Below, in pieces: positions 45,990-62,609 of a stretch of DNA of 64,000 nucleotides (within the stretch, counting starts at the first letter, position 1; every line of letters begins with the position of its first letter). Source of the stretch: Adlercreutzia sp. ZJ473 (lineage in GTDB: Bacteria; Actinomycetota; Coriobacteriia; Coriobacteriales; Eggerthellaceae); the NCBI RefSeq assembly GCF_013185065.1, contig NZ_JAAVTO010000002.1, positions 1 to 64,000 of the forward strand. Reading direction: 5' to 3'. The notes beneath the pieces were generated by a model. It did no database searches and was not told where the DNA came from. It saw nothing but the letters and a program-made list of their open reading frames with translations. The position numbers were made by a program, and so were the translations under genes.

Positions 45990-46268
45990 ATGCCCATTAC
46001 GCGAACCTCATCCGACCTACAGCGAAACATCAGCGAAGTGTATGAGCTGTGCGAGCAGCATGACCAGCCCGTCTACATCACGCGCAACGGCCATGCCGAC
46101 CTCGTTGTCATGAGCGCCCGCGCCTACGAGCGGCAGGCCCTTTTGAGCCGGCAGGTATACGAGTACGAGATGGAGCTGCGCGACCGCGCCAACCGCGCCT
46201 ACGAGGACATGAAGGCCGGGAGAGAGAAGTCGCTCAAGCAGATCAACCGCGAGATGGGTCTGGCATGA
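45990..46268 (+). CDS. Phd/YefM-family antitoxin
   Basis: 92 aa. SSDLQRNISEVYELCEQHDQ and PVYITRNGHADLVVMSARAY are typical of Phd/YefM N-terminal DNA-binding folds; the C-terminal helix carries the toxin-binding region. It overlaps the toxin start by 4 bp (ATGA). GGAAGG precedes the ATG. Confidence 0.9.
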   Translation: MPITRTSSDLQRNISEVYELCEQHDQPVYITRNGHADLVVMSARAYERQALLSRQVYEYEMELRDRANRAYEDMKAGREKSLKQINREMGLA

Positions 46269-46687
46269 GCGCCAGCGACGAAGGTCACGGCAACGGTGCG
46301 GGTTGTGTCGGCGGCGCGGGTTGCGGAAGCGGCGAAGGCTGCGCCAGCGAAGAGATTCGCGGTAACGGTGAGGAGCCTCCCTACGAGGTGAGGCTCTCCG
46401 AAGCCGCCGAAGTCGCGTATCGAGATCTCGCCCCGAGCGCCGCCTTCCCGAAGCTCAGGAAGATGCTCGACCTTCTTGACACCGTTCCTGAAATCGGGCG
46501 AATCTACGACCCTGACTATCCGGCTGCGCTTCCTGATATGAAGATGCGCGTCACCTATGCGGGGCGTTACGGCATCTACTACGTAGTCGAGGAGCGCCTT
46601 CGGCTGGTGCGCGTGCTGTTCATAGAGGATCAGCGTCGCGACCCGCTCAATCGCTTCTACGGCATATATCCCTACGAAGAAGAGTAG
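46265..46687 (+). CDS. RelE/ParE-family toxin with Gly/Cys-rich N-terminal extension
   Basis: 140 aa. Residues about 38-135 are a RelE-type fold (EVRLSEAAEVAYRDLAPSA, YAGRYGIYYVVEERLRLVR). The first 37 residues are low-complexity, containing GAGCVGGAGCGSGEGC, and are absent in usual RelE toxins. The start overlaps the antitoxin stop, so the extension is translated unless an internal start is used. A bidirectional terminator follows. Confidence 0.8.
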   Translation: MSASDEGHGNGAGCVGGAGCGSGEGCASEEIRGNGEEPPYEVRLSEAAEVAYRDLAPSAAFPKLRKMLDLLDTVPEIGRIYDPDYPAALPDMKMRVTYAGRYGIYYVVEERLRLVRVLFIEDQRRDPLNRFYGIYPYEEE

Positions 46688-46888: not shown

Positions 46889-47950
46889 CTAGCCAATCGG
46901 ACCGTAGTAAACGACTGGCTTGATGCAGTCCCGGTTGGCCCCATTCATCATATGTAAGGCTTCCTCAGTGCTCTCGATGCCCTCGAGGCGATGTGTAACC
47001 AACTTTTCGGGCGAAAAGCGTCCCAGCTCTACCAAGGTAAGGAGCCGCTCCAAGATCTCGCGGTTGACGTCGACCAGCACGCTCTTGAACGTTTTGTCCA
47101 TGAGGAATCCGTAGTAAGCCAAAGGCTTCGCCTCCTCTCCCATGAAGCTTGCGAGGTTGATGACGGTTCCGTTCTTCTTGGTCATGAACAGGCCCTGGTT
47201 GATCGTGCTGGAGTCCTTGCCGCCGCATACGATGGCGCTGTCGACAGGACCATCGTTAGCTGTGACCACTTGCTGTACGATATCGCCATCACGGTAGGAG
47301 ATGAAGTCGGTTGCCCCGTATTCCTTGGCGATATCGAAGCACAGCTGGCGCGATCCTATGGCATAAATTCGACCTGCGCCCGCAAGCGCTGCGGCTGCAA
47401 CCGCCATGAGGCCGATCGCTCCGATGCCGATTACGGCAACTGAATCACCGAATCTGATGTTGGCGTTGCGAATGCCCTCGAAAGAGGTTGAGGCCATGTC
47501 CGTCAGCATGACTGCTTGCTCCCAGGTGATGGACTCGGGGATCTTCGCTAAGTTCATGTCAGCGTCAAATACGAAGTACTTCTCTGCGAATGCTCCCTGC
47601 TGCCAGTTTTCAGCCTTGCCGTAGACGGTCATGTTGTGAGCTCGGGCGTATCCCGCCTGGGCTTCCTTGGTTCGGAAATTATTGATAGCTGCGCCAACAG
47701 CCACTCGGTCACCTATCTTGAAGTCCTTAACCTCAGATCCAACCTCCACGACATAGCCGCAGGTCTCATGGCCTATGGCTTTGCCCAGGCACCCGGGTAC
47801 GGCATGGGGGTTCTCTATGATATGGGTATCGGACGTGCACGGTGCTACGATGTGGGGCTTGATGATTGCGTCATACGGCCCGCATTTTGGCTCAGGAAGG
47901 TTGTCTCCCATCTCAACCCGTCCCTTTTCAACGAGAACCAGTCCCTTCAT
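46889..47950 (-). CDS. zinc-dependent secondary alcohol dehydrogenase
   Basis: 353 aa, close in layout to the clostridial/Thermoanaerobacter NADP-linked secondary ADH. Zn ligands Cys38 (APCTSD) and His61-Glu62 (GHE) are visible, and the nucleotide fold is GIGAIGLMAV. GSRQ at the end of strand 2 matches the GSR that binds the NADP phosphate in those enzymes. ATG 47950 follows GGGAGC. It is cotranscribed with a VOC gene and lies beside Moco locus 2, suggesting an alcohol/ketone linked to that enzyme. Confidence 0.85.
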   Translation of the reverse strand: MKGLVLVEKGRVEMGDNLPEPKCGPYDAIIKPHIVAPCTSDTHIIENPHAVPGCLGKAIGHETCGYVVEVGSEVKDFKIGDRVAVGAAINNFRTKEAQAGYARAHNMTVYGKAENWQQGAFAEKYFVFDADMNLAKIPESITWEQAVMLTDMASTSFEGIRNANIRFGDSVAVIGIGAIGLMAVAAAALAGAGRIYAIGSRQLCFDIAKEYGATDFISYRDGDIVQQVVTANDGPVDSAIVCGGKDSSTINQGLFMTKKNGTVINLASFMGEEAKPLAYYGFLMDKTFKSVLVDVNREILERLLTLVELGRFSPEKLVTHRLEGIESTEEALHMMNGANRDCIKPVVYYGPIG

Positions 47951-48045
47951 CTTTGCTCCCTCGCTTTCTTTGAGTACGCTGACCAAGCAGGCTTGGACCT
48001 TTTTGGGCCCCTGCCTTTGTCTAGGTGATCATCGAGCCACGTTGG

Positions 48046-48468
48046 TTACTTTTCGATGAGCTCGACCATGTATCCGTCGGGATCGAAGACGTAGGAGAAG
48101 CGATATCCGCTCGAACCGCACAGGGGGATATCGATCTCAGTACCAGCATCGACGACCTTCTGATATGCCTCGTCAATGTTGTCGTAAAGAAGAGCGACGT
48201 GGCTCGACCAGAAGTCTTCGTGCTTGACCTTGCCCTCCATCCTGCGCTGTTCAATGTTGAAGAACTGGAACAGCTCGACGCACTCAAGGCCGTCTTCTGC
48301 GGCCAGAAGCACGATGCGCATCTTTGACTCCTCGTCGCGGGTGAGGCTTTTCGCGGGAATCACTCCGAAGTCCTTGGAAACGCGAAGTCCCAAGACGTTG
48401 CAGTAGAAGTCAATTGATCGGTCCATGTCGATGACGCAAATTGAGGTATGTCCGGTGTATGCTGCCAT
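48046..48468 (-). CDS. VOC (glyoxalase/dioxygenase superfamily) protein
   Basis: 140 aa, two beta-alpha-beta-beta-beta repeats. Metal ligands are likely His7 (GHTSICV), Glu near 70, His near 91 (SSHVALLY) and Glu137 (YMVELIE). Close in form to lactoylglutathione lyase and methylmalonyl-CoA epimerase relatives. It precedes the ADH gene with a 95-bp gap. The substrate is not known but may be a ketone-type intermediate. Confidence 0.85.
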   Translation of the reverse strand: MAAYTGHTSICVIDMDRSIDFYCNVLGLRVSKDFGVIPAKSLTRDEESKMRIVLLAAEDGLECVELFQFFNIEQRRMEGKVKHEDFWSSHVALLYDNIDEAYQKVVDAGTEIDIPLCGSSGYRFSYVFDPDGYMVELIEK

Positions 48469-49123: not shown

Positions 49124-51706
49124 ATGACGAACAAATGGGCTCCTGAAGAGGGCCAGCTCGAGCGCGTAACAGCCAAAATCGTCGAGCGTCATGCTGAAGA
49201 CGAGATCTTCACCGGCGTATGCTCGAAGAACGGCTGCTGGGACGTTTGCCTGCTCAAGGGACATGTCGGCAAAGACGGCAAGGTCAACGCCGTTGAGACC
49301 GACAACTCCATTCATCCCAACTGTGGTCGCGAGGACGAGTACTGCGACTTCGACGATTTCGTGAAGGGCATGTATCAGAAGCGTGCCTGCACGCGTGGCC
49401 GCCTGATTCGCTCCGACGTCGAGTCCCCGACCCGCATCACGCAGCCAATGCGTCGCGTCGGGCCCAAAGGTCCTGGCGCTACCTTCGAGCCGATCAGCTG
49501 GGATGAGGCTCTCGATGAGATTGCGCGTATGTACTCTGAGACTCGCGAGAAGTACGGCCCTCTTTCCGTTTATTGCGACGGCATGATGGGCAAGTCCTGG
49601 GACCCGTGGGGAAGCTGGCTTCCCGGTGGCTCCGTTGCGTGTTGGGGCGAGGACTCCTACGAGTCTACAAACTTCGCCGATGACATCATGTACGGCCACA
49701 GCGCTGACTGGATCGACCAAGTTGACGGCATCGCCGAGGTGCAGACTTTTTTCGATTCCAAGCTGATGATCCTGTTCGGTCTGGATACCGCCAATAACTT
49801 CACCGAGCGCACCTACTACCAACTGCTTGCGAAGGAGAAGGGCATCCCCATCATCTACATCGACCCGCGTTTTTCCTGGACCGCTCAGGCTATTGCGACC
49901 CAGTGGATTCCAATCAAGCCGGGTACCGACATCGCGCTCATCTTTGCAATGACCTATGTTCTCATCGAGGAAGATCTCGTTGATCATGAGTTCATCGAGA
50001 AGTTCGTTGAGCCTGAGGGCTACCGCAAGTACGTCGACATGATCATGGGGAACGAGCCCGAGTGGTATTGCCAGGGCATGGCTTCCATGGAAGAGCCGAA
50101 GACCCCCGAATGGGCCGAGCAGATCTGCGGCATTCCCGCTGAGACTATTCGCGAGCTTGCTCGCCTTTATGGCAAGACCAGCCAGGAAGGCCCTGTATAC
50201 ATTCGCATGATTTGGGCAGCCACCCGTGCCATCTACGGAAAGGACACGGCACGTGCGTTCAACGTCTTGCAGACGATTTGTGGCAATTTCGGCAAGAAGG
50301 GTTGCGCGGGTAACGGCACTGGCTTCGGCCGTCGCAAGGGTACTCATGCTCCCTATTCGTTGATGTACGTGGCAAACGGTACCGGCCCCTACGGCGAGAC
50401 CATCTGCATGGAGGCCGAGGCCTATAACAAGGCCGTCCTGCTTCACCCGAAGATGGAAGCTGGCGAGATCACCAAGGAAGAGTACTGCTACGAAATCGGT
50501 TGCTCTGCCACTGGCCCTATGCCCAACATTCACATGATTTGCGACATTCCGTCAAATCGCAATCTTGCTGCTGGCTGGTACGGTGTCAACGAGCGCCTCG
50601 AAGCACTCAAACAGGTCGATTATTTCGTGTACATGCACTGGAATCTGAAGAATGCCACCTGCTGCTATGCTGACATCGTGTTGCCGCAGACCAGCTCCTC
50701 CATGGAGTCCCCGTGGAACAGCCTTGTGTACAACCTCAGCCTCTGCAACGGCATCAACCCCGGTACCCACAATCACTTCATCTTGGGCGACGGCAGGAGT
50801 AAGGCTCCCGAGAACACCCGCTACACCTGGTGGATCGTCAAGGAGATTGCTGTCCGTCTCGGCATCGCCGATGAGTTCTGCCCCAACATCAAGGACATGG
50901 ACAACGACGAGCTTGAAGAGTACATCATCAAGGATGCAAGTCGTATTGCATATGAGGCATGGTGCGGATACAGCCCCAATGCCAAGAACGCACCGTCTTG
51001 GGAAGAGTTCATGGCTCAGGATGAGCAGATTTTCCGCTGGCCCATGGACGACTACTTCGTATACGGCATGGACCACATCCAGAACGGCAAGCCCTTCAAC
51101 ACCAGGTCGGGCAAGATCGAGTACTACAACGAGTTCATCGCCGATCATGATATGCGCAAAGCAAAGATCGGCGCATCCCAGCGCCAGCTCGGCTGCAACG
51201 ACATCAAGGCACTGCCGTTCTACCGCAAGTCGCCACAGGGTATGCAGTCCCCGCGCACGAAGCAGTTCCCGCTGTACATGATTACCCCGCACTCTCCCTA
51301 TCGTCAGCACACCGCTTTCGACCATAGCGACTGGGTGAGAGACGAGCATCGTGCATCCATATGGTTGTCAGTCGCAGACGCTAAGTCCCGCGGCATTAAA
51401 GATGGCGATCCTGTGCGCGTGCACAGTGATTGCGGCGAGGTCCAGGTTACTGCTTACGTCACGTCCCGTGTGACCCCAGGCGTAACCGTTCTGCCCTTTG
51501 GCCGTTGGTACGAGCCGAACGGCATCAAAACTGAGCTCATGCCCGACGGAATCGATACGCGCGGAGACTGTAATTTTCTGATCTCCGACGACCATTATGG
51601 TGATGTGAAAGGCTCCATCCTGTGCAACGCCCTCGTCCAGGTCGAGAAGCTTGCTCCTGCAGCCCTCATCGCCAACGCCAGCCAGTTTATCCAGGGAGGG
51701 GAGTAA
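49124..51706 (+). CDS. molybdopterin oxidoreductase catalytic subunit, soluble type (locus 2)
   Basis: 860 aa DMSO-reductase-family protein with no Tat signal. Iron-sulfur Cys are C33, C38, C42 and C89 (TGVCSKNGCWDVC, KRACTRGR). MGD-binding regions include FEPISWDEALDEIAR, IIYIDPRF and FNVLQTICGNFGKKG, and the C-terminal barrel ends VKGSILCNALVQV. The preferred start has GGAGGAG 5 nt upstream. Directly followed by a four-cluster B subunit and NuoE/NuoF-like genes, with no membrane anchor, so electrons likely come from or go to NAD(P)H. The substrate is not recognisable. Confidence 0.85.
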   Translation: MTNKWAPEEGQLERVTAKIVERHAEDEIFTGVCSKNGCWDVCLLKGHVGKDGKVNAVETDNSIHPNCGREDEYCDFDDFVKGMYQKRACTRGRLIRSDVESPTRITQPMRRVGPKGPGATFEPISWDEALDEIARMYSETREKYGPLSVYCDGMMGKSWDPWGSWLPGGSVACWGEDSYESTNFADDIMYGHSADWIDQVDGIAEVQTFFDSKLMILFGLDTANNFTERTYYQLLAKEKGIPIIYIDPRFSWTAQAIATQWIPIKPGTDIALIFAMTYVLIEEDLVDHEFIEKFVEPEGYRKYVDMIMGNEPEWYCQGMASMEEPKTPEWAEQICGIPAETIRELARLYGKTSQEGPVYIRMIWAATRAIYGKDTARAFNVLQTICGNFGKKGCAGNGTGFGRRKGTHAPYSLMYVANGTGPYGETICMEAEAYNKAVLLHPKMEAGEITKEEYCYEIGCSATGPMPNIHMICDIPSNRNLAAGWYGVNERLEALKQVDYFVYMHWNLKNATCCYADIVLPQTSSSMESPWNSLVYNLSLCNGINPGTHNHFILGDGRSKAPENTRYTWWIVKEIAVRLGIADEFCPNIKDMDNDELEEYIIKDASRIAYEAWCGYSPNAKNAPSWEEFMAQDEQIFRWPMDDYFVYGMDHIQNGKPFNTRSGKIEYYNEFIADHDMRKAKIGASQRQLGCNDIKALPFYRKSPQGMQSPRTKQFPLYMITPHSPYRQHTAFDHSDWVRDEHRASIWLSVADAKSRGIKDGDPVRVHSDCGEVQVTAYVTSRVTPGVTVLPFGRWYEPNGIKTELMPDGIDTRGDCNFLISDDHYGDVKGSILCNALVQVEKLAPAALIANASQFIQGGE

Positions 51707-51709
51707 ACT

Positions 51710-52459
51710 ATGACCCAGTATGGATTCTTCTTCGACCAGAGTCGCTGCACTAATTGCCATGCGTGCGCGATCGCCTGCCGCGATTGGAACGACATCAAGG
51801 GTGGCAGCCCTGTCAAGTTTCTTCGCATGATGCAGTGGGAGAAGGGCGCTTTCCCGAACCTGCGCATGCACGTTCTGTTCGCTACGTGCTACCACTGTGA
51901 GGTGCCGGTGTGCGCCGATGCCTGCGAGCACAAGGCCATCTTTAAAGAGGACAAGTACGGTGCGGTTTTAGTGGATCCCGACCTTTGCGAAGGTGATCGT
52001 AACTGTTGGAAGGCCTGCCCTTATGGAGCTCCCGCTTATGAGGACGATGCGCCTGGCACCCCCATGCAGAAGTGCACCATGTGCTATGACAAGCTGGAGA
52101 TTGGCGAGCTTCCCATTTGCGTCTCCTCCTGCCCGCAGCGCGCCCTTGACTTCGGTCCTCTCGAGGAGATGATCGAGCGTTACGGCGACTGCCGCGCTCT
52201 TGAGGATATGCCCTCTGGCGACGCAGTAAAGCCAGCTGCTGTGTTTAAACCCATGCATGAGCACAAGCAGGTCGTTCCCTACGATGCCGACCGTGCGCTC
52301 GGGCTGTTGGCAAACCGCGGCGAATACCTTGATCCGGTTTTTGACTGCGCCGAGGATGCGACCGAGGTTTATGAGGGCCTCGTTGGTTACAGCAAGCTGG
52401 TGATGAAGGCCTCCACCGTGACGGAGACGCTGGCTCGTTCGAAGAACGAAGAGGGTTAG
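51710..52459 (+). CDS. four-cluster ferredoxin subunit, DmsB-like (locus 2)
   Basis: 249 aa. CTNCHACAIAC, CYHCEVPVCADAC, CEGDRNCWKAC and CTMCYDKL...CVSSC give ligands for four [4Fe-4S] clusters. The last 80 residues are an extra C-terminal segment without Cys pairs. It begins 3 bp after the catalytic gene. In DmsABC-type enzymes this subunit links the catalytic subunit to the electron donor; here the donor side is the NuoEF pair. Confidence 0.9.
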   Translation: MTQYGFFFDQSRCTNCHACAIACRDWNDIKGGSPVKFLRMMQWEKGAFPNLRMHVLFATCYHCEVPVCADACEHKAIFKEDKYGAVLVDPDLCEGDRNCWKACPYGAPAYEDDAPGTPMQKCTMCYDKLEIGELPICVSSCPQRALDFGPLEEMIERYGDCRALEDMPSGDAVKPAAVFKPMHEHKQVVPYDADRALGLLANRGEYLDPVFDCAEDATEVYEGLVGYSKLVMKASTVTETLARSKNEEG

Positions 52460-52520
52460 GATTGACGAGCTTTACGCCTTATTGAACCTCGACGTGAGCT
52501 TATAGCCCAAGGCTCTTGGC

Positions 52521-52573
52521 GTGAGCCGGGGTGCTCACCTGATGCGACGCCCTGCCTTCGCGGGGCGTCGCAT
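52521..52573 (+). terminator. two intercistronic hairpins between B subunit and NuoE-like gene
   Basis: GTGAGC/GCTCAC (52521-52538) and then ATGCGACGCCC/GGGCGTCGCAT (52542-52573) form consecutive stems within the 135-bp gap. There is no T-run, so they may act as partial terminators or mRNA-stability elements that set subunit ratio. Confidence 0.5.
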
Positions 52574-52594
52574 GGTTATTGAGGAGCTTGCAGC

Positions 52595-53086
52595 ATGGTC
52601 GTACCAAAACTCAAACAGTCCTTTGCCGCCGAGGTTGTAACGCTTTGGGAAGAGCATTGCGATCCAGCGGGAAGACTCTTCTTCATTCTAAACACCTTGC
52701 AGGAACGCCATCGTTACATTCCTGCAGAGGCCATTGAAGAACTGGCCCAAATAATGGGTTCTGATTTTGGCGAGATTGAGGACTTCGTTCGGTTTTTCGA
52801 TGTGTACTCGCTTTCGAAATTGGGGGAGTGTGTTATCGAGGTGTGTGACGGTACGGCCTGCCACGCTTGCGGATCAGACCGACTTCTGCGCAAGTTCGAA
52901 TCTATTCTCGGGATTCCCGAAGGGGAAACGACTCCTGATGGACGTATCAGCCTCAAGCGAGTACACTGCGTTGGATCATGCTCTTCCGCCCCCGTCGTAG
53001 TCATGGGAGAGGAGTCTTTTGGCAGGGTGAGGGTGTCGCGCGTAGGCGACATCGTGGAGAAGGCGGTGGGGCGTGATGGAGCTTAG
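52595..53086 (+). CDS. NuoE-like [2Fe-2S] subunit (locus 2)
   Basis: 163 aa, thioredoxin-like [2Fe-2S] fold of the 24-kDa complex I subunit: Cys84-x4-Cys89 and Cys125-x3-Cys129. The N-terminal helical bundle (RLFFILNTLQERHRYIP) is typical. It overlaps the NuoF-like gene. With it, it makes the NADH-oxidising module used in formate dehydrogenases and bifurcating hydrogenases. Confidence 0.9.
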   Translation: MVVPKLKQSFAAEVVTLWEEHCDPAGRLFFILNTLQERHRYIPAEAIEELAQIMGSDFGEIEDFVRFFDVYSLSKLGECVIEVCDGTACHACGSDRLLRKFESILGIPEGETTPDGRISLKRVHCVGSCSSAPVVVMGEESFGRVRVSRVGDIVEKAVGRDGA

Positions 53087-54908
53087 GATTGTCGAAGAGC
53101 TGGAGAAAAAGGGCTCGCGGCAGCTGGAGTCATACCCGCGCGTTGCTGTCGGTATGGGTACATGCGGCATCGCCGCCGGTTCGCAAGCTGTCTGCCAAGC
53201 TTTTTCGGAAGCCCTCGATGCATGCGAGGATGTGAGGCTTGACGAGGTGGGTTGCCGCGGAACATGCTGGGCTGAGCCCCTTGTCGAAGTGCACATGGCA
53301 AAGGGATCCTCCGTTTTGTTGGGCTCGATGACGCCGTTCAAGGCAAAGAGGCTTGCGGCGAACCTGCAAGCCTGCAAGGGCTCGGAGCTGAGTATTGAAA
53401 AGGTGAGCAAGGGTCTCTCGTCTTGCGTCCTTGATTATTCCGACATCGACGCCTATCAAACACGCGTTCTCCTTGCCGACTGCGGAAAGGTCGACCCGCT
53501 ATCGTTGCCGCAGTACTGCGCCATCGGGGGATTCGCCGCCTTTGAGAGGGCTCTGCTCAAGAAAGACCCAACCGCCCTCATCGGGGAGCTTGAGCGATCG
53601 GACTTGCGCGGTCGTGGCGGCGCAGGCTTTTCCACGGGAGCGAAATGGCGCGCAGTTGCCGAGGCGAGCGCAAGGCGAGGGGAAAGCCCTGTGGTCATCG
53701 TCAATGCTGATGAGGGCGATCCCGGTGCCTACATGGACCGCAACCTGCTGGAAAGCCTCCCTTTTCGCGTTCTCGAGGGAGCCATGCTCGCCCTCGTTGC
53801 GCTGGGCGCAAGCCAAGCATACGTTTTTATTCGCAAGGAATACCCACTCGCATGCTCGATCTTGCGCAAGGCGGTTTCTGCTCTCGAAAACGCAGGGCTT
53901 TTGGGTGATGACGTGCTGGGGTCGGGAAGATCCTTGCGCATAGGCATCATTCAAAGCGCAGGTTCCTACGTGTGTGGCGAGGAGACATCCCTCATCGCAG
54001 CCATCGAGGGTCGCGTGCCCCGTCCGCGCAAGCGTCCGCCATACCCTTCGGAGCAAGGTCTCTGGGGGCTTCCCACCTTGGTGGGAAATGTCGAAACTTT
54101 CGCGAATGTTTCGCTTGTGTTCCTGCGGGGCGCCGAGTGGTTTTCGTCGATTGGCGCTTGGGGTAATTCGGGAACTAAAGTGTTTTCTCTCACGGGAGAC
54201 GCCATGCGTGTTGGTTTGGTCGAGGTAGAGCTCGGTACGCCCGTCTCTCGCGTCGTAGACGAAATAGGCCGAGCGGAAAACGTAAAGGCGGTTCAAATCG
54301 GAGGTCCTTCGGGTGCCTTCCTGCCCAATTGGAAGCTCGACGTGCTACTCGAGTATGAGAGCCTTGCCGAGGCCGGCGCCGTCATGGGATCGGGCGGGCT
54401 CGTCGTGCTTGGAGAAGATCGATGCATGGTCGAGCTAACCCGATACCTTGCAGACTTTTCCGCAAAAGCTTCGTGCGGCCGCTGCTTGGCATGCAGGGAC
54501 GGCTTGCGCGAGTGTGCCGCCCTTCTCGAAAAGCTGACAGAAGGAAGCATCGCTGCGGATGCTTTGTCTGAAGTTGCGACCTTGATTCAGCGTATAGAAA
54601 AGGGATCTCTTTGCAATCTGGGCAAGTTCTCTATTAGACCCATTGCTTCCGCTTTGGTGTACTTTGAAGACGAGTTCGTCGAGCATGGGGCAGGGCTTTG
54701 CAGAGGCCGTGCATGTCGAGACCTCATTCGGTTGGAGATCGACAAGGCGAAATGCCAAGGCGAACGATGCTGTCTGCAGACATGCCCGGGTACGGCGATC
54801 AAAGGTAGATTCGGAAAGCCCGGAACCATAGATCAAGACCTGTGCCTTAAGTGCTTTACGTGCATTGACGTGTGCCCCTACAACGCGGTTGTCATTATTG
54901 GTCGATGA
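53076..54908 (+). CDS. NuoF-like NAD(P)H/FMN subunit with extra ferredoxin domains (locus 2)
   Basis: 610 aa. The N-terminus is a [2Fe-2S] thioredoxin-like domain (TCGIAAGSQAVC, GCRGTCWAEP). FMN/NADH site GRGGAGFSTGAKW and NADEGDPGAYMDR, SLBB region, then SCGRCLACRDGL for the N3 [4Fe-4S] cluster. The C-terminal two-cluster ferredoxin has a normal CLKCFTCIDVC and an odd first half CQGERCCLQTC. This is the HndC/HydB layout of soluble bifurcating or NAD-linked enzymes. ATG 53076 or the GTG before it are both possible starts. Confidence 0.9.
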   Translation: MELRIVEELEKKGSRQLESYPRVAVGMGTCGIAAGSQAVCQAFSEALDACEDVRLDEVGCRGTCWAEPLVEVHMAKGSSVLLGSMTPFKAKRLAANLQACKGSELSIEKVSKGLSSCVLDYSDIDAYQTRVLLADCGKVDPLSLPQYCAIGGFAAFERALLKKDPTALIGELERSDLRGRGGAGFSTGAKWRAVAEASARRGESPVVIVNADEGDPGAYMDRNLLESLPFRVLEGAMLALVALGASQAYVFIRKEYPLACSILRKAVSALENAGLLGDDVLGSGRSLRIGIIQSAGSYVCGEETSLIAAIEGRVPRPRKRPPYPSEQGLWGLPTLVGNVETFANVSLVFLRGAEWFSSIGAWGNSGTKVFSLTGDAMRVGLVEVELGTPVSRVVDEIGRAENVKAVQIGGPSGAFLPNWKLDVLLEYESLAEAGAVMGSGGLVVLGEDRCMVELTRYLADFSAKASCGRCLACRDGLRECAALLEKLTEGSIAADALSEVATLIQRIEKGSLCNLGKFSIRPIASALVYFEDEFVEHGAGLCRGRACRDLIRLEIDKAKCQGERCCLQTCPGTAIKGRFGKPGTIDQDLCLKCFTCIDVCPYNAVVIIGR

Positions 54909-54919
54909 TTGCCGCGATA

Positions 54920-55657
54920 CTACTCTTCTGGGCCTGTGTTGGGAAACAGCCAGGTGGGGTAGGGAACCAGGTCGTTGTGACGCTTTGCGTCATGGTAGTC
55001 GGGGGAAAGCACCACCGCACGATAGCGCAGTTTGATTCGGCCGTCCTTCTCGAGTTTTTTGAGGGCGTGTGTTACCGACGTGCGTTCGGAATTGATCAGC
55101 TGCGCGATGTCATTATGCGTGAGCTCGACGAGGAAACCCTCGTCAGTCTGAGGGCACAGCCAGGCGATGTTGAGGAACAAGCGGTGGATTCTCTCCTTGA
55201 GAGACGTTGTCGAGAGCATCCAGATCTGCCTGTTCATGACGTTGTAGTTGAAATTGGTGGAGTTGATCAGGCTTATCGTGAACTGAGGGTTTTCCTGCGC
55301 TGCTTTAAGGATCCTTGCGGCGGGGATCTTGCATATGTCGCATGGCGTGTAAGCCGTCAGGAGATACTCCGCATGGTGATTTTGAGCGAAAGGCTCAGTC
55401 TCTCCAAGCGCACATCCCCGACCAAATATGCCCATCGTGACGTTCTTGCCGTCTTTCTCGATGGTTGACATAGCCAGTAGGCCACTTAATATGACATAGG
55501 TGTTTTTGCGGTCGGACGAGTCACGGTAGAGAAAGTCGCCGCGCTTGACATGGATGATTTTGCTGCAGGACGTATTCGCCTTCTGATCGCTAAGGCATAG
55601 GTCAGCCAAGTGACACTTGAATAAAATCGGACAAAAAGATCCATTGTGATCTTCCAT
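54920..55657 (-). CDS. Crp/Fnr-family regulator with N-terminal cysteines
   Basis: 245 aa from ATG 55657. Cyclic-nucleotide-fold domain at 30-130, then HTH near 180-215 (ELTHNDIAQLINSERTSVTH). Cys9, Cys15, Cys21 and Cys31 lie before the fold and could bind an iron-sulfur cluster, as in FNR oxygen sensors. It is convergent with the NuoF-like gene, only 11 bp away. A regulator of redox genes, probably including locus 2. Confidence 0.8.
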   Translation of the reverse strand: MEDHNGSFCPILFKCHLADLCLSDQKANTSCSKIIHVKRGDFLYRDSSDRKNTYVILSGLLAMSTIEKDGKNVTMGIFGRGCALGETEPFAQNHHAEYLLTAYTPCDICKIPAARILKAAQENPQFTISLINSTNFNYNVMNRQIWMLSTTSLKERIHRLFLNIAWLCPQTDEGFLVELTHNDIAQLINSERTSVTHALKKLEKDGRIKLRYRAVVLSPDYHDAKRHNDLVPYPTWLFPNTGPEE

Positions 55658-56101
55658 CGCCGCCCCCACTCTTTATTGGCTTGATTCAGCCTATACGGAT
55701 GTAGGTATTGTAATTGTGGTGATGCACACAATGTTGAGTTGCTCCGATTCGATACGAGTCGGAATAATGCCGTTATTAGCGCTAGGTCGAAGCAGCCGCT
55801 CAAAGGACCGACTGTGGAACATGCGTGATAGGCAGGTGGTTTGGCTCTGACGCGGCGCAAGGCGGCATCGGCAACTCCGCGACGGGTTCGCCGGAAGCGC
55901 CTCACCTCGCCTCGCCCTCCGCGCCCGCCATGCGCTGGCCTGCCCAGGCAATTCCACGATCAGCCCATCCTCTTTGATGCGCGCATCGCAACCGTGCTAG
56001 ACTGCTCAAGTGACTTCCGTTTGTCTTGATTCATCGCCGTGGAGGTTCTCGTTTTCCGGCAACTCGGCTTTCCTGGTCCGCGAGCTTATGGAGGGGTGTC
56101 C
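55658..56101. other. intergenic region between Crp/Fnr and LysR genes
   Basis: No gene is seen. A 21-bp dyad with arms TCCGATTCG and CGAGTCGGA (55743-55763) is operator-like. The Crp/Fnr gene promoter on the minus strand and the LysR promoter on the plus strand must lie here. GC rises sharply from about 55840 on, marking the border between locus 2 and locus 3 DNA. Confidence 0.45.
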
Positions 56102-57070
56102 ATGCGCGTTGAGACGTTGGCGTTGTTTCTTTCCGTAGCCCAGTATCGGTCCATCTCCCATGCGGCTCGCCAGCATTACATCTCCCAGCAAGGCGCCTCG
56201 GCCGCCATCAAGGGCCTTGAGGCGGAGCTGGAGGTTGCGCTGTTCGACCGCACGCCGACGGGGCTTCAGCTTACGGGCGCGGGCCAGGCCATTGCCAAGG
56301 AGGTCCAAGCTCTCCTCGACGCCTATCGACGGGTGCAGGTGGCGGCGGCGCTGGGGGACCAGAGGTGGGAGGGCGAGCAGCTCACCGTCGTGTCCATGCC
56401 CTTCGTCACCAACCGCCTGGATGCGATGTTCTCCGAGTACGACTCCATGGCGGTCGGTCCTCGGCTGCGCATCGTGGAGCAGAGCCTGCTCGAGATCGCC
56501 CGCATGTACGCCCAAGACGAATCGGGCGCGTTGTTCCTGGTGGCGCTTCCCTCGTTTGCGGAGGGCATCGACCGGCGGGTGGTGGACGATTTCAGCCCGT
56601 TGGTGGAGTGCGAGCTCATGGTGGCGTGCGCTGCCTCCCACCCCCTCGCCAGCCGGGGGTGCGCGACGCCCGAAGACCTGGGCTCCATGCCGATTGCCTG
56701 CTATTGCGAGGAGTTCCTCATGCGCATCCTCACCCACATCATGGCGGGAGGCCACCCCAACATCCAGCTGCTGACGTCTAACCTCGCCATGATCGGGCGA
56801 GCCGTTGCTTCCGGCGAGATGATAACGTTCACCGACTCGCTCTCGACGTTCCTCGACCGTCCGGATCCCAACACCGTGGTGCGGCCCATTCGCCCGGAGG
56901 TCCTGTTCCGGGTGGGGATGCTGGGAGTTGCCGACGAAAGCGGGCCGGCGGCGCGCTTCGCTCGGTTCATGCGGCAGTATCTGAGCCTGTCCTGCTCAAC
57001 CTACCTCGAGCGTCACGGGACGGCGTCGGCGCTCGCGGCGGACGCGTCAGGTGGGGAGGAGAATTCGTGA
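56102..57070 (+). CDS. LysR-family regulator (locus 3)
   Basis: 322 aa. HTH ALFLSVAQYRSISHAARQHY, then the inducer-binding domain with two Rossmann-like halves. ATG 56102 follows GGAGGGG. Its stop overlaps the ferredoxin start, so it is transcribed with locus 3 and likely activates it in response to a substrate. Confidence 0.9.
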   Translation: MRVETLALFLSVAQYRSISHAARQHYISQQGASAAIKGLEAELEVALFDRTPTGLQLTGAGQAIAKEVQALLDAYRRVQVAAALGDQRWEGEQLTVVSMPFVTNRLDAMFSEYDSMAVGPRLRIVEQSLLEIARMYAQDESGALFLVALPSFAEGIDRRVVDDFSPLVECELMVACAASHPLASRGCATPEDLGSMPIACYCEEFLMRILTHIMAGGHPNIQLLTSNLAMIGRAVASGEMITFTDSLSTFLDRPDPNTVVRPIRPEVLFRVGMLGVADESGPAARFARFMRQYLSLSCSTYLERHGTASALAADASGGEENS

Positions 57071-57267: not shown

Positions 57268-57445
57268 GAATTCCTCTAAGGGCGGCTTTGCCTGGCGCGC
57301 AGCGCGCGGTCTCAGGCTCGCCTGCGTCTGCCGAGGCCATCCCATACAACATTTCCTTGTGGGGCCAACCGCTGCTCGTTGTTTGTCGCCGATTCTCGTC
57401 CCCTCGATAATGCTCGTCAAGGGCATTTCGACGAGAGGAGGACGG

Positions 57446-59782
57446 ATGGGCTCGGTAATCCCATTGCCCGACGGGGGCAAACTGGTGAAGACCAACTGCT
57501 TCGAATGCCATGCCAAATGCGGGGTCCTGTGCGAGGTGAACAAGGACGGGGAGCTTGTGAGCGTGAAGGGCAACCCCGAAGACCCGCGAAGCGAGGGGAG
57601 GCTGTGCAGCAAAGGCCTGTCGGCGAAGAAGATTCTCTACGATCCGGAGCGCTTGCGCTGGCCGCTGAGGCGCAAGGGCGAGCGCGGCGCAGGAGACTGG
57701 GAGCGGATCACCTGGGACGAGGCGCTTGACTGGCTGGAGGGGCGCATCCGCGCCATCACCGACGAGCACGGCGCCGAGGCGATAGCCTTCGGCCAGGGCA
57801 CCGGCCGCGGCACGAACCAGTGGACGGCCCGCATGGGCAATGCGGGCGGGCGCGTGCACCACAGCCTGGCCCCGGGCAACATCTGCCTGGTGCCCATGAT
57901 GGTGCAGTCCATCGTGCAGCTGGGGTGCTTCCCCATCTTCGACGGCTGCGACTTCGACCACGCCGACTGCATCGTGTTCTGGGGAGCCAACTCGGTGTGG
58001 ACCGAGGCCACCTACAGCTCGGGGCAGATCGGCCGCTCGCGCGACCGCGGCGCCAAGCTCATCGTCATCGACCCGTTCTTCGAGCACCCGCTGGCTGCGA
58101 AAGCCGACCACTTCCTTGGCGTGCGCCCGGGGGCGGACACCTATGTCGCCATGGCGTGGCTCAACGTGATCATCAGCGAGGACCTGTACGACCACGAGTT
58201 CACCCGGAAGCACACCAACGCCCCCATGCTGCTCATCGACGGGCCGGACGTGCCCCTCAACGGCCAGCTCATCGACCCTGAGGGCAATCCCCAGAGCATG
58301 CTCGTGTTCGACAGGGCCAGCGGGCAGCTGGTGGACACCCATGTCAAGGGCGTTGACGAGGACATGGAGTACCGCGGCATGGTGACGCTTGCCGACGGAA
58401 GCGAAGTGCCGGTGAAGACCGTCTGGGCGGCTCTCAAGGACCTGGTCGCCGAGTGGACGCCCGAGCGGGCGAGCGAGATGAGCTGGGTGCCGGCTGACGT
58501 CATTCGCGAGTCCGCGCGCACCTACGCCAACGCGCCTGCTGCCACCATCAACGTGTTCCAGGGCGTGGAGGAGCAGACCAACTGCCGCGACACCATCCAG
58601 CTGATCCTCATGATCATAGCCATCTGCGGCAACTTGGAGAAGAAGGGCGGAAACCTGAGCATGCCCTTCTGGAACCAGATGTTCGCGCTGTCCGGCCCCA
58701 GCCCCGAGACGGCGGTCGAGCTCCGCATGGTTGACGAGCGGGCGCCGGGGTACCTGAACGGCTCGGGCAACACCAACATGATCTTCAACGCCATGCTGAC
58801 CGACGAGCCGTATCCCGTGCGCGGGTACATCATGGTCCAAGGCAACCCGCTCTCCTGGTCGGAGGACACGAAGTTCGTTCGCCGCGCCCTCATGAGCCTG
58901 GATCTGCTCGTGTGCATGGACTACTACATGTCGCCTACCTGCGAGCTGGCTGACCTGGTCCTGCCCTCCACGCACTGGACCGAGCGCGACTACCTGGCCG
59001 ACGAGGTGTGCAGCGAGTGGGTGTTCGCCCAGCAGAAGGCCGTGGAGCCGCTTTACGAGCGCAAAAGCGACGTGTGGTTCTTCCGCACGCTGGGGCATCG
59101 GCTGAATCCCGAGTGGTGGCCGTGGGAGACTGACGAGGAGCTGTTCGACTGGCAGCTTGAGCAGACGCACGCGGGCATCACCTGGGATGCGCTCAAGGAG
59201 CAGTGGATCCATCATCTGCCCATGATGCCGTCGCGCCATTTCGAGGAGAACGGCTTCGCCACGCCGTCGGGCCGTGCTGAGCTGTACTGCGTGGCTGAGC
59301 TGGCCGTGGGGGCGGGCCCCTTCCCGAAGGCAAGCGAGCCGAAGGAGAGCCCGTATGCCACGCCTGAGGTCGCCAAGGAGTACCCGCTGATCGGCGTGAC
59401 CGGCCGACGCTATCCGGTGTACTACCACTCCGCCTACCGCGGCATTCCGCACCTGCGGGAGATCGTGCCCGAGCCCCAGGTCATGTTCCATACCTCCGTC
59501 GCCCGCGAGCTGGGTGTCGAGTACGGCGAATGGGTGTGGATCGAGTCGCCGACCGGCCGCATCACCATGAAGGCGCGGCCGACCGACGGCGTGGACCCGC
59601 GCGTGTGCGTGATCCCCCATGGCTGGTGGCAGGGCTGCGCGGCGATCGGGGCGGAGGCGTATCCCGACGACATGTGCAACGTGAACGTCATCACCGGAGC
59701 GCGCACCTACAACGACGAGTTCATGACGCCTGGCCTGCGCAGTACGCTGTGCCGTATCGTGAAGAAGGAGGGCGGTGAGTAG
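57446..59782 (+). CDS. molybdopterin oxidoreductase catalytic subunit, DmsA-like (locus 3)
   Basis: 778 aa. [4Fe-4S] Cys18, Cys21, Cys25 and Cys54 (CFECHAKCG, GRLCSKG). MGD regions follow (GTGRGTNQWTARMGNAGG, VVIDPFFEHP-type segment, GYIMVQGNPLSW). No Tat signal is present, although the operon encodes a membrane anchor. ATG 57446 follows GAGGAGGACG. GC is higher than in loci 1 and 2. E. lenta dehydroxylase loci show a similar LysR-A-B-C-MFS order. Substrate not assignable. Confidence 0.85.
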   Translation: MGSVIPLPDGGKLVKTNCFECHAKCGVLCEVNKDGELVSVKGNPEDPRSEGRLCSKGLSAKKILYDPERLRWPLRRKGERGAGDWERITWDEALDWLEGRIRAITDEHGAEAIAFGQGTGRGTNQWTARMGNAGGRVHHSLAPGNICLVPMMVQSIVQLGCFPIFDGCDFDHADCIVFWGANSVWTEATYSSGQIGRSRDRGAKLIVIDPFFEHPLAAKADHFLGVRPGADTYVAMAWLNVIISEDLYDHEFTRKHTNAPMLLIDGPDVPLNGQLIDPEGNPQSMLVFDRASGQLVDTHVKGVDEDMEYRGMVTLADGSEVPVKTVWAALKDLVAEWTPERASEMSWVPADVIRESARTYANAPAATINVFQGVEEQTNCRDTIQLILMIIAICGNLEKKGGNLSMPFWNQMFALSGPSPETAVELRMVDERAPGYLNGSGNTNMIFNAMLTDEPYPVRGYIMVQGNPLSWSEDTKFVRRALMSLDLLVCMDYYMSPTCELADLVLPSTHWTERDYLADEVCSEWVFAQQKAVEPLYERKSDVWFFRTLGHRLNPEWWPWETDEELFDWQLEQTHAGITWDALKEQWIHHLPMMPSRHFEENGFATPSGRAELYCVAELAVGAGPFPKASEPKESPYATPEVAKEYPLIGVTGRRYPVYYHSAYRGIPHLREIVPEPQVMFHTSVARELGVEYGEWVWIESPTGRITMKARPTDGVDPRVCVIPHGWWQGCAAIGAEAYPDDMCNVNVITGARTYNDEFMTPGLRSTLCRIVKKEGGE

Positions 59783-59784
59783 CT

Positions 59785-60384
59785 ATGTCCGATAAACGCT
59801 ATGGAATGGTCATTGACCTTGACAAATGCACGGGATGCCAGGCATGCGCGGTGGCCTGCAAGATGGAGAACGACGTAGACCTGGGCGTGTTCTGGGAGCG
59901 CGTCTACCGCATGGGGCCCATCGGCGAGTTCCCTGACAAGCTGGAGATGTTCTACTTCCCGAACCAGTGCATGCACTGCGAGAACCCCAGCTGCATCGAC
60001 GTGTGTCCCACGAAGGCGACCTATCAGACCGACGAGGGCGTCGTGCTGGTGGATGCGAGCTTGTGCTTCGGCTGCCAGTACTGCATCTGGGCCTGCCCCT
60101 ACGAGGCTCGCACGCTGAATCCCCATACCAAGATCGTGGAGAAGTGCATCCTGTGCGTCCACCGCTTGGAGAAGGGCGAGCAGCCCCTGTGCGCCTACAC
60201 CTGCACGACGGGATGCCGCGTGGCGGGGGACTTGGGCGATCCGGAAAGCCAGGTGTCCCAGGTCCTCGCGCAGAACGAGGATCGAGCCTATCGGGTGCAC
60301 CCTGAGTTCGGCAACAAGCCCTCGGTCGTGTACCTCCTGCCTCGGAAGGGAGCTGAGACGCTATGCAAATCCATTGGCCGCTAA
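59785..60384 (+). CDS. four-cluster ferredoxin subunit, DmsB-like (locus 3)
   Basis: 199 aa. CTGCQACAVAC, CMHCENPSCIDVC, CFGCQYCIWAC and CILCVHRLEKGEQPLCAYTC give four cluster sites. It starts 2 bp after the A subunit and overlaps the anchor gene by 22 bp. It transfers electrons between quinol-reactive anchor and catalytic subunit. Confidence 0.9.
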   Translation: MSDKRYGMVIDLDKCTGCQACAVACKMENDVDLGVFWERVYRMGPIGEFPDKLEMFYFPNQCMHCENPSCIDVCPTKATYQTDEGVVLVDASLCFGCQYCIWACPYEARTLNPHTKIVEKCILCVHRLEKGEQPLCAYTCTTGCRVAGDLGDPESQVSQVLAQNEDRAYRVHPEFGNKPSVVYLLPRKGAETLCKSIGR

Positions 60385-61211
60385 TCGTGTCAACTACGTG
60401 CCAGCGCGTGGGCTTGGGCCTGTTCATCTGCGCGTTCCTTGGCTTCGTCTGCGTGGGGTCCCCCGTTGGCCTCTCCGTGGTAGCGTGGATCACGCTGGTC
60501 TTGCTGGCGGTGGGGGGCGTCGCCTCCGTCTTCCACCTGCAGCGCCCGAAGCGCTTCTTCAACGCCTTCAAGAACCCGAAGTCGCACCTCACCCAGGAGG
60601 CGATCGTCACGCCGTTTCTGGGGGCTGCCCTCTTGGCCTGCGGGCTTGACGGCGTGCTGTATGACCTGGGCGAAGCGAGCCTTCTCGCAGGCGCCGTCGC
60701 CGCCGCCCTGGCCGCGGCGTTCCTCGTCTGCACCGGCTTGGCCTACCAGATGGGCTCGCGTCCGGCTTGGAACACGCCCTTCGTGCTGGTGCTGTTCCTG
60801 CTCACGGCGCTCTCGGCGGGCACCATCGGCGTGGTGGTGCTGTGGCTCGTCTCGGTGGGATTGGTCCCCGTCGTCTTCGTGTGGGCGGCCGTCGCGTCGA
60901 CCGCCGTCTGCGTTGCGTGCCAGATCGCTTACGTGGCGCGCATGCGCTCGGTCGGCTACGGGGTGAACGTCGAGGCCACGAAGGAGCCCTATCGGCCTTA
61001 CTTCATCGCATGGGTCGTTATGGGGGCCGCCGTCCCGCTGACCATGCTGCTCTCGCTCTTCATCATCCCCTTGGCCCCCGTGATCTCGTGCGTCATCGCA
61101 TGGTTGAGCTGCGCGTGCGGCATTGCCGCCTGGACCATGCTGTTCTTCAGGGGCGCTCACAAGGTGAAGATGTTCCCCATGTATCCAGTTGACCTGAATC
61201 TCGACATGTAG
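60363..61211 (+). CDS. DmsC-like membrane anchor (locus 3)
   Basis: 282 aa with eight predicted helices. HWPLIVSTTCQRVGLGLF at the start and SVFHLQRPKRFFNAFKNP in the first loop are typical of DmsC-type quinol-reacting anchors. It overlaps the B subunit gene, so the three form one complex on the cytoplasmic membrane. Confidence 0.85.
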   Translation: MQIHWPLIVSTTCQRVGLGLFICAFLGFVCVGSPVGLSVVAWITLVLLAVGGVASVFHLQRPKRFFNAFKNPKSHLTQEAIVTPFLGAALLACGLDGVLYDLGEASLLAGAVAAALAAAFLVCTGLAYQMGSRPAWNTPFVLVLFLLTALSAGTIGVVVLWLVSVGLVPVVFVWAAVASTAVCVACQIAYVARMRSVGYGVNVEATKEPYRPYFIAWVVMGAAVPLTMLLSLFIIPLAPVISCVIAWLSCACGIAAWTMLFFRGAHKVKMFPMYPVDLNLDM

Positions 61212-61307
61212 GAATCGCCGCAACTGCGGGCTCTGCGAGGGGACGGCGCGGCCTTTTCGCCCTTCCCCTCGCCCTTGAAGACAACTCTCCTCGAAAGAAG
61301 GAATCTT

Positions 61308-62609
61308 ATGGCAGAGAAGAAGTTCTATGGTTGGAAGGTCGTGGTGGTAACCGCAGTGCTGTACGCCCTGCTGGGAAACTTCGGCCTGGCCGCAGCGCAG
61401 ATCACCATTCCCGTCATGGCGCTGGACCCCACGGTGGGAATGGATCGCACCATGATAGGCATCGGGTTCACGGTGTTCATCCTCATGCAGGGTCTGCCCG
61501 GGCCGCTCATCGGCAAGTTCGTCGAGAAGTACGGGGCTAAGAACGCGTTTCTCGCCAGCTCGGTCCTCATCATAGCCACGGGCATCCTGCTCGGGCTCTT
61601 CGCCGGAGCCTCCACCGCCGCGTACATCGTGCTGTTCGGCGTGCTGCTCAGCTTCTCGAGCACGCTTGGCGGCCAGGTGGCGACGCAGACCACCATCGGC
61701 AGCTGGTTCGTCATGAAGCGCGGCCTGGCCATGGCGGTGACCATGGGCCTGGGAGGCGTGGTCGCGTTCTCGTTCCCGCTCATCACCAACGCCGCCATAG
61801 GCGAGGCGGGGAACTGGCCCATGGGCTTCTTCCTCATCTCCGTCATGGGCGCCGTGTCGCTCGTCGTGGCGTTCTTGCTCATGCGCAACAAGCCTGCTGA
61901 CATGGGCCAGAACCCCGACGGGATGACCGACGCGCAGCTGCAGGAGGCAACGGCCGCCGCGGGAGACGCCCCGGCTGATGCGGGCGCAGCTGCGAAGAAG
62001 GGCGGCGTGTTCAAGAACGCGCAGTCCATGACGCAGGGCCAGGCGTTTCGCACCCCGGCGTTCTGGCTCATCCTGACTGCGGCGCTCTCCATCTTCGTGG
62101 CGCTGAACATGGCCGTGTCTTCCGGAGTGCTGCATTTCAGCGGGCTGGGCATCGACGCCACGGTCATCGCCGGCGCCGTGGCCGTGCAGGGGATCGCGGC
62201 CGTCGCGGTGAACCTGGTCATCGCGCCTCTGGCCGACCGTATCGAGCCCGCCCGCATCCTGGGCGTCTGCGCCGGCCTCACCGCCGCCGGCGCCCTGTGC
62301 GCGGCGTTCGCGCAGCCGGGCGACGTGGTCATGCTGTACCTGTACTACATCCTGTTGGGCCTCGGGTTCGGGGGGAACACCAGCGTCATGCCCACGGCGT
62401 TTGCCAACTACTTCGGCATCGCCAACTTCCCGAAGATCATCGGCACGGTGCTGCTTCTGCTCTCGCTGCTCTCGGGGCTCGTGCCCACCATCGCCGGCAT
62501 CGCGTTTGACGCGACGGGCACGTATGTGACCATGTTCGCGGTCATCGCCGCCATCTGCGCCGTCGGCGCGCTGGCAGGCTTCCTCGTTCGCTTTCCCAAG
62601 CGCGTCTAG
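61308..62609 (+). CDS. MFS transporter, OFA-like
   Basis: 433 aa, twelve helices with a central cytoplasmic loop rich in Ala (residues about 205-250). YGWKVVVVTAVLYALLGNFG is typical of the oxalate/formate antiporter-like group. AAGGA precedes the ATG. It probably carries the substrate or product of the locus 3 enzyme. Confidence 0.85.
   Translation: MAEKKFYGWKVVVVTAVLYALLGNFGLAAAQITIPVMALDPTVGMDRTMIGIGFTVFILMQGLPGPLIGKFVEKYGAKNAFLASSVLIIATGILLGLFAGASTAAYIVLFGVLLSFSSTLGGQVATQTTIGSWFVMKRGLAMAVTMGLGGVVAFSFPLITNAAIGEAGNWPMGFFLISVMGAVSLVVAFLLMRNKPADMGQNPDGMTDAQLQEATAAAGDAPADAGAAAKKGGVFKNAQSMTQGQAFRTPAFWLILTAALSIFVALNMAVSSGVLHFSGLGIDATVIAGAVAVQGIAAVAVNLVIAPLADRIEPARILGVCAGLTAAGALCAAFAQPGDVVMLYLYYILLGLGFGGNTSVMPTAFANYFGIANFPKIIGTVLLLLSLLSGLVPTIAGIAFDATGTYVTMFAVIAAICAVGALAGFLVRFPKRV

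Follow-up and report, generated by a model that had tools for sequence, protein, structure and literature searches.

Introduction

Gut Coriobacteriia have dozens of molybdenum enzymes that act on dietary and host compounds. How the soluble gut enzymes are tied to energy metabolism is unsettled, and for the ellagic-acid dehydroxylases the link to anaerobic respiration has been stated to be currently unknown (PMC12771579). Enzymes of the bifurcating Bfu family are marked by a B2 cluster with a diagnostic histidine, which is missing in non-bifurcating homologues (Schut et al. 2022, PMC9304861), and Bfu Type 4 has been defined as BfuBC without BfuA (PMC9304861). The cassette described here links a soluble molybdenum enzyme genetically to NAD(H) through a core of this family.

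Layout of the locus

The window, the whole stretch of 64,000 nucleotides that was analysed, lies on contig C41 of an Eggerthellaceae genome of 2.63 Mb (G000, the window genome). The following features were assigned:

46889-47986, minus strand: ADH, NADP-type secondary alcohol dehydrogenase of the TbADH/EhADH family, accessory cassette member
48046-48468, minus strand: VOC protein, glyoxalase-like, adjoining A
49124-51706, plus strand: A, soluble bis-MGD molybdoenzyme catalytic subunit, 860 aa, without Tat signal
51710-52459, plus strand: B, DmsB-like polyferredoxin, 249 aa
52543-52572, plus strand: intercistronic hairpin directly 5' of nuoE, arms TGCGACGC/GCGTCGCA, without T-run
52595-53086, plus strand: NuoE, BfuC-like thioredoxin-fold [2Fe-2S] subunit, 163 aa
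53073-54908, plus strand: NuoF, BfuB-like FMN/NAD(H) subunit, 611 aa, with the B2-cluster Cys/His set
54920-55669, minus strand: CRP/FNR-type regulator

Coordinates and domains agreed with the first-pass annotation in placing the four molybdenum-cofactor and NuoEF genes on one strand in the order A, B, NuoE, NuoF. Pfam and NCBIfam models assigned Fer4 domains to B, 2Fe-2S_thioredx to NuoE, and Complex1_51K, NADH_4Fe-4S and Fer4 to NuoF; the NuoE and NuoF genes overlap by 14 bp. A starts with MTNKWAPEEG and has no Tat motif, and no membrane-anchor gene was found beside A-B-NuoE-NuoF, both as had been claimed. The nearest anchor gene is DmsC-like (60408-61211) and lies 3' of a second molybdenum gene pair. 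The description of the neighbouring genes as a secondary alcohol dehydrogenase with an NADP-type GSR motif and a VOC protein was likewise borne out, the dehydrogenase matching TbADH/EhADH-type NADP enzymes with an E value of 1e-80 and carrying the GSR motif.

The second molybdenum system of the window (57359-62609, plus strand) consists of a catalytic subunit, a four-cluster B subunit, the DmsC-like anchor and an MFS transporter; a LysR gene (56039-57070) lies 5' of it. At 45990-46687 (plus strand), a Phd/YefM-type antitoxin gene is followed by a small gene without Pfam match, possibly coding for a toxin.

Catalytic subunit A

A has the Molybdopterin and Molydop_binding domains as its sole Pfam matches and the fold of the DMSO reductase superfamily, to which it is assigned on these grounds. 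The best NCBIfam model was DmsA/YnfE (TIGR02166, DMSO/selenate reductase A) with 363.9 bits, which is below its cut-off of 777.7. A rapidly computed tree, whose outgroups have long branches, was based on A with E. coli DmsA, YnfF, TorA, NapA and FdhF and with molybdenum enzymes of the same genome; pyrogallol transhydroxylase was left out. Six cassette A proteins formed one clade (SH-aLRT 100). It belongs to the DmsA-like part of the tree and lies inside a Coriobacteriia clade (100) in which a single Syntrophomonas sequence is also found. The window genome's own FdhA grouped with FdhF (100), far from A.

In a Foldseek search with the predicted structure of A (pLDDT 84), MtsZ, DMSO reductase and TorA were nearest, and pyrogallol transhydroxylase, formate dehydrogenase and acetylene hydratase first appeared at ranks 18, 23 and 34, respectively. 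Sequence scores were 133 bits for MtsZ, 123 for DMSO reductase, 97 for pyrogallol transhydroxylase and 68 for acetylene hydratase. Of the DmsA/pyrogallol-type layout claimed at first, the DmsA group was retained on the basis of the tree and the best model, and the pyrogallol type was given up, MtsZ and the DMSO and TMAO reductases being nearer. The same scores and ranks led to rejection of pyrogallol-phloroglucinol transhydroxylase as the closest kin of A. Kinship with catechol dehydroxylases (Cdh) was also rejected, with acetylene hydratase serving as proxy for Dadh and Cldh. Hydroxyl transfer, proposed earlier as one possible activity, is unsupported; transhydroxylation involves no net redox change that would call for an NADH module.

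S178 of A aligns with the serine metal-ligand position of the family, is nearly invariant and is a candidate molybdenum ligand. The supposedly extra site formed by C33, C38, C42 and C89 (C33-x4-C38-x3-C42...C89) turned out to be the ordinary FS0 [4Fe-4S] site, which is present in other DmsA-type relatives.

The known soluble molybdenum enzymes with NuoEF are formate dehydrogenases of the FdsABG type, and NuoF partly resembles FdsB, but to read the cassette as a soluble NAD-linked formate dehydrogenase is practically untenable. A stands apart from FdhF and FdhA in the tree and does not nest among formate dehydrogenases, it scored 150.7 bits against a cut-off of 666 with the formate dehydrogenase alpha model TIGR01591, and it has Ser, not Cys or Sec, at the molybdenum-ligand position. 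The sequence thus argues strongly against this identity, which was rejected; the fold agrees with the tree and the model scores, and the earlier view that the catalytic subunit is not a formate dehydrogenase stands.

Subunit B

B is a polyferredoxin with a third motif CEGDRNC (CEGDRNCWKACP) that is one Cys short. This suggests three [4Fe-4S] clusters and possibly one [3Fe-4S] cluster, as a correction to the four-cluster subunit described at first. The CxGDRNC motif was considered as a mark of the cassette and rejected, as paralogues without NuoEF carry it too.

NuoE and NuoF as a BfuBC core

The best matches of NuoF were the bifurcating NfnB, NiFe-HydB, HydB and StnB (E < 1e-130). Alignment to 9n5u, 7t2r, 8a6t and 8oh5 revealed the motifs of the FMN/NAD site, the B1 [4Fe-4S] cluster and the N-terminal [2Fe-2S] cluster. 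The predicted fold (pLDDT 88) matches HydB, NfnB, StnB and the B subunit of the tungstopterin aldehyde oxidoreductase Bfu (9mqx). The B2-cluster residues C451, H538, C543 and C548 were invariant across 26 sequences, and the fifth B2 ligand is Thr, like in FeFe enzymes. Four Cys of NuoE align with NfnC and HydC, as in a BfuC with one [2Fe-2S] cluster. NuoEF of the complex I type was therefore rejected in favour of a Bfu-type core, the best PDB matches being bifurcating enzymes.

The NuoF proteins of the cassettes form one clade (SH-aLRT 88). The NuoF of Adlercreutzia ZJ176 (G029; L127, 11914-13962) contains a long low-complexity insert rich in Ala, Gly and Asp, which is absent from near relatives.

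No BfuA gene was found in the locus, which sets it apart from Bfu Types 1-3. By gene content (BfuBC, no BfuA, an unrelated partner adjacent) the locus corresponds to Bfu Type 4. Most comparator NuoF genes of the family have a NuoG/BfuA-like gene adjacent; none was detected by a weak test in loci L184 and L187.

A search for PF10588 (NuoG/BfuA) gave nothing in the single-contig genome G138 (97% complete), in G084 or in G126. In the window genome, the sole match was a formate dehydrogenase on the same contig (C41, 89.7-92.6 kb), an FdhA with a NuoG-like N-terminus. Its position as the only PF10588 protein of the genome, on the contig of the cassette, speaks for it as a possible BfuA-like partner of NuoEF. 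However, an NADH_4Fe-4S/GltD-like flavoprotein of its own is encoded next to it, and the three genomes without a PF10588 match keep the cassette, so this pairing is disfavoured and regarded as very unlikely. The region itself (L197, 3905-8591; C41, about 87.9-92.6 kb), in which the FDH-like protein lies beside the GltD-like flavoprotein, likely codes for an NAD(P)-linked formate dehydrogenase.

Altered ferredoxin motif of NuoF

In the C-terminal ferredoxin domain of NuoF, the counterpart of the 2[4Fe-4S] domain with B3 and B4 in Bfu enzymes, the second motif is canonical. The first motif, CQGERCCLQTCP, comprises C561, E564, C566, C567 and C571, with E564 in place of the second Cys and an extra Cys, C566, two positions on. 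Every cassette NuoF with its C-terminus available has CQGERCC-x3-CP here, except that of G116, and other family members and PDB relatives have CxxCxxC-x3-CP. A G116 copy reads CPGCRCC and, from the sequence, looks like an intermediate. The CQGERCC-x3-CP signature was absent from all other loci examined. When 400 genomes of the class were scanned with a degenerate DNA pattern encoding the motif, five matched, each a cassette genome, and the reversed control pattern matched none.

With Glu at the second Cys position and a new Cys two positions on, cluster type and potential at the first motif are uncertain. In known Bfu enzymes, the side of the first ferredoxin motif serves ferredoxin. Taken together with the missing BfuA, this suggests that the altered domain of NuoF may dock on B rather than on free ferredoxin.

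The first-pass annotation had considered the system possibly bifurcating because NuoF carries extra ferredoxin domains. NuoF does belong to a bifurcating family; bifurcation itself does not follow, given the missing BfuA and the altered first motif. A full bifurcating or confurcating "Mo-Bfu" of Type 4, in which the molybdenum site would be the third substrate site besides those for NAD(H) and ferredoxin, is possible but rather improbable. It would be a more far-going version of the NADH-linked reading given below and overlaps with it. The BfuBC core retains B1, B2 (His/Cys) and the N-terminal and second ferredoxin motifs, Type 4 members without BfuA have been described (PMC9304861), and Bfu cores are known in pterin enzymes (9mqx). 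Against these points stand the lack of BfuA and the loss of the second Cys from the first ferredoxin motif (CxGE), seen, G116 apart, in the cassette members whose sequence covers this end; the change may raise the potential or alter the partner.

Conservation of the linkage

A set of 140 Eggerthellaceae genomes was searched, and proteins with at least 42% identity to A were taken as orthologues; many paralogues with 34-37% identity were present besides. Orthologues were found in eight genomes (G000, G084, G085, G116, G126, G029, G137 and G138). The NuoF lineage of the window occurred in 8/8 of these versus 1/132 of the others. In this single case (G124), NuoEF reaches the contig end, where A would come next, and A matched fragments of only 32-40%.

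A and genes of the NuoF lineage adjoin in all eight genomes, in three arrangements. The order ADH<VOC< A>B>E>F> was found in G000 and G084, and G085 is alike as far as its contigs reach. The order (PucR)>E>F>A>B>(ADH)>TorD> occurs in G029 (Adlercreutzia sp. ZJ176, L041), G137 and G138, and a divergent layout, <VOC<B<A / E>F>, in G116. In G126, a fused E-F gene is followed by the beginning of A. NuoE and NuoF form one open frame of about 860-920 aa in two species (L142 of G124; L139 and L195 of G126).

The cassette genomes are related, so the eight cases are not eight independent events. Occurrence of the same partners in three arrangements nevertheless favours function rather than accident, and the linkage of A with NuoEF, which recurs in eight species, is not due to chance. 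Conservation of NuoEF independently of the molybdenum genes, named by the first-pass annotation as an outcome that would speak against the proposed system, did not occur for the NuoF lineage of the window; nor did the other such outcome it named, firm nesting of the catalytic subunit inside formate dehydrogenases.

Two findings count against a strict functional unit. Compared with the closest relative of the window, NuoEF is 72-75% identical versus 94-96% for A and B, so that NuoEF has diverged further, and G116 has a second NuoEF copy without A, located behind an ADH gene whose product is 78% identical to the window ADH.

The nearest A/B paralogues are without NuoEF. One such A-B pair of the window genome (contig C108, L135) adjoins its own VOC-like and MFS-like genes; judging from this pair, the VOC association may predate the link to NuoEF. 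A Deltaproteobacteria contig (L045) carries two A-like genes and one B-like gene.

Accessory genes and intercistronic hairpin

A TbADH-type ADH above a strict threshold was found in 7 of the 140 genomes, six of them cassette genomes. In G138, no ADH gene lies beside the set, and none was found genome-wide at E 1e-75. ADH was therefore rejected as an essential subunit and is taken as a metabolic partner, which probably acts on a related alcohol or ketone metabolite rather than in electron transfer. The VOC gene is common to the window, G084 and G116, and adjoins A or B in the latter two. A copy of the CRP/FNR-type regulator (76% identical) follows NuoF in G085, and a CRP-like gene lies beside the set in G116. 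Different branches of the cassette are accompanied by a TorD-like chaperone (in the Adlercreutzia-type set), PucR or CRP-type regulators.

The gap of 135 bp between B and NuoE contains a strong hairpin (z -3.8). Its 8-bp arms are identical in G084, a similar stem is present in G085, and one further copy occurs in the window genome. The stem-loops 5' of nuoE are located at 52543-52572 in the window, at 2431-2460 in L128 and near 2711-2740 in L130. Between B and NuoE, G084 has a small Zn-ribbon-like ORF together with a terminator-like element; a shorter version is present in G085. The hairpin may control the dosage of NuoEF versus AB or bind a regulator, and with the gap, the hairpin and the terminator-like element a single four-gene transcript cannot be assumed.

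These elements, the divergent AB and EF genes of G116 and its ADH-NuoE-NuoF set without A would fit two separate enzymes sharing a pathway or regulon, in which NuoEF (possibly together with ADH) acts as an independent NADH diaphorase. The paralogues of A and B that do without NuoEF make another electron donor for AB conceivable. We consider this arrangement of mere neighbours doubtful in view of the adjacency in 8/8 genomes through three arrangements, the NuoF signature specific to the lineage, and G138, in which no BfuA for NuoEF was found.

Proposed electron path

The reading preferred here, to which we assign a probability of roughly 60%, is that A and B form a cytosolic molybdenum oxidoreductase of the DmsA group which is linked to NAD(H) via a Bfu-family core lacking BfuA. 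It is favoured by the co-occurrence and adjacency of the genes, the Bfu-type NuoF with its B2 His/Cys set, the genomes without PF10588, the clade and signature of the cassette NuoF proteins, the A clade (100), and the TorD-like chaperone. A, B, NuoE and NuoF would form a physical complex in which B may stand in for BfuA. NADH, the presumed electron donor, would reduce the FMN of NuoF; electrons would then pass through the Fe-S clusters of NuoEF to those of B, and from there via the FS0 [4Fe-4S] cluster of A to the bis-MGD molybdenum with its putative Ser ligand. An organic or S/N-oxide-type substrate would be reduced at A. This reductive direction appears the more plausible one, and the reverse, with electrons delivered to NAD(H), would also be possible. 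Among substrate classes, the kin of A point first to S/N-oxide-type or hydroxylated organic compounds, and the presence of the ADH suggests that the pathway involves a secondary alcohol or ketone.

A further-reaching proposal, which we put forward only tentatively, is that the cassette represents a class of gut reductases in which a DMSOR-superfamily enzyme sits on a bifurcating core without BfuA, the ferredoxin domain of BfuB being remodelled (CxxC to CxGERCC) and B replacing BfuA, so that reduction of dietary or host compounds would be coupled to NADH and ferredoxin. If true, this would be an energy-conserving gut reductase.

Comparison with known systems

No system matching the cassette was found in the open-licence literature on 21-dehydroxylation, catechol dehydroxylases, Adlercreutzia molybdenum clusters and bifurcating DMSOR enzymes. 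Nor did searches of this literature turn up a DMSOR-superfamily AB pair combined with a Bfu core without BfuA and with a changed ferredoxin motif, and the main text of Schut et al. (2022, PMC9304861) mentions neither molybdopterin nor Coriobacteriia.

The Type 4 enzyme Rub-Bfu (PMC9304861) resembles the cassette in having BfuBC with FMN, B1, B2 (His/Cys) and C1, no BfuA, and an unrelated redox partner adjacent. This partner is rubrerythrin in Rub-Bfu and a DMSOR-superfamily AB pair in the cassette, whose first ferredoxin motif is CxGERCC. Wor-Bfu (tungstopterin aldehyde oxidoreductase BfuABCSL, 9mqx) likewise places a pterin enzyme on a Bfu core, but its enzyme belongs to the aldehyde oxidoreductase family and BfuA is present, whereas the cassette has a DMSOR-superfamily enzyme and no BfuA. 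FdsABG and FDH1 share with the cassette a soluble molybdenum (or tungsten) enzyme with NuoE- and NuoF-like subunits, and differ in their FdhA-type catalytic subunit with Cys or Sec at the metal and in a NuoF-like subunit without C-terminal ferredoxin domain.

DmsABC/YnfEFGH, MtsZ, DMSOR and TorA agree with the cassette in superfamily, fold of A, Ser at the molybdenum position and a DmsB-like B; compared with this group, the cassette has no Tat signal and no anchor, an identity of about 30%, and an NADH core replacing the quinol module. The soluble catechol dehydroxylases of the Gordonibacter type come from the same bacterial family, lack Tat signals and have a 4Fe-4S partner; MFS-like transporter genes adjoin them, as they do the A paralogues without NuoEF. 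Their closest kin is acetylene hydratase (PMC7028382); the nearest relatives of A are DMSOR/MtsZ and DmsA. The component parts of the cassette are known, and their combination appears to be new. With BfuA gone and one ferredoxin motif rebuilt, it is a natural test of which Bfu parts are needed for bifurcation.
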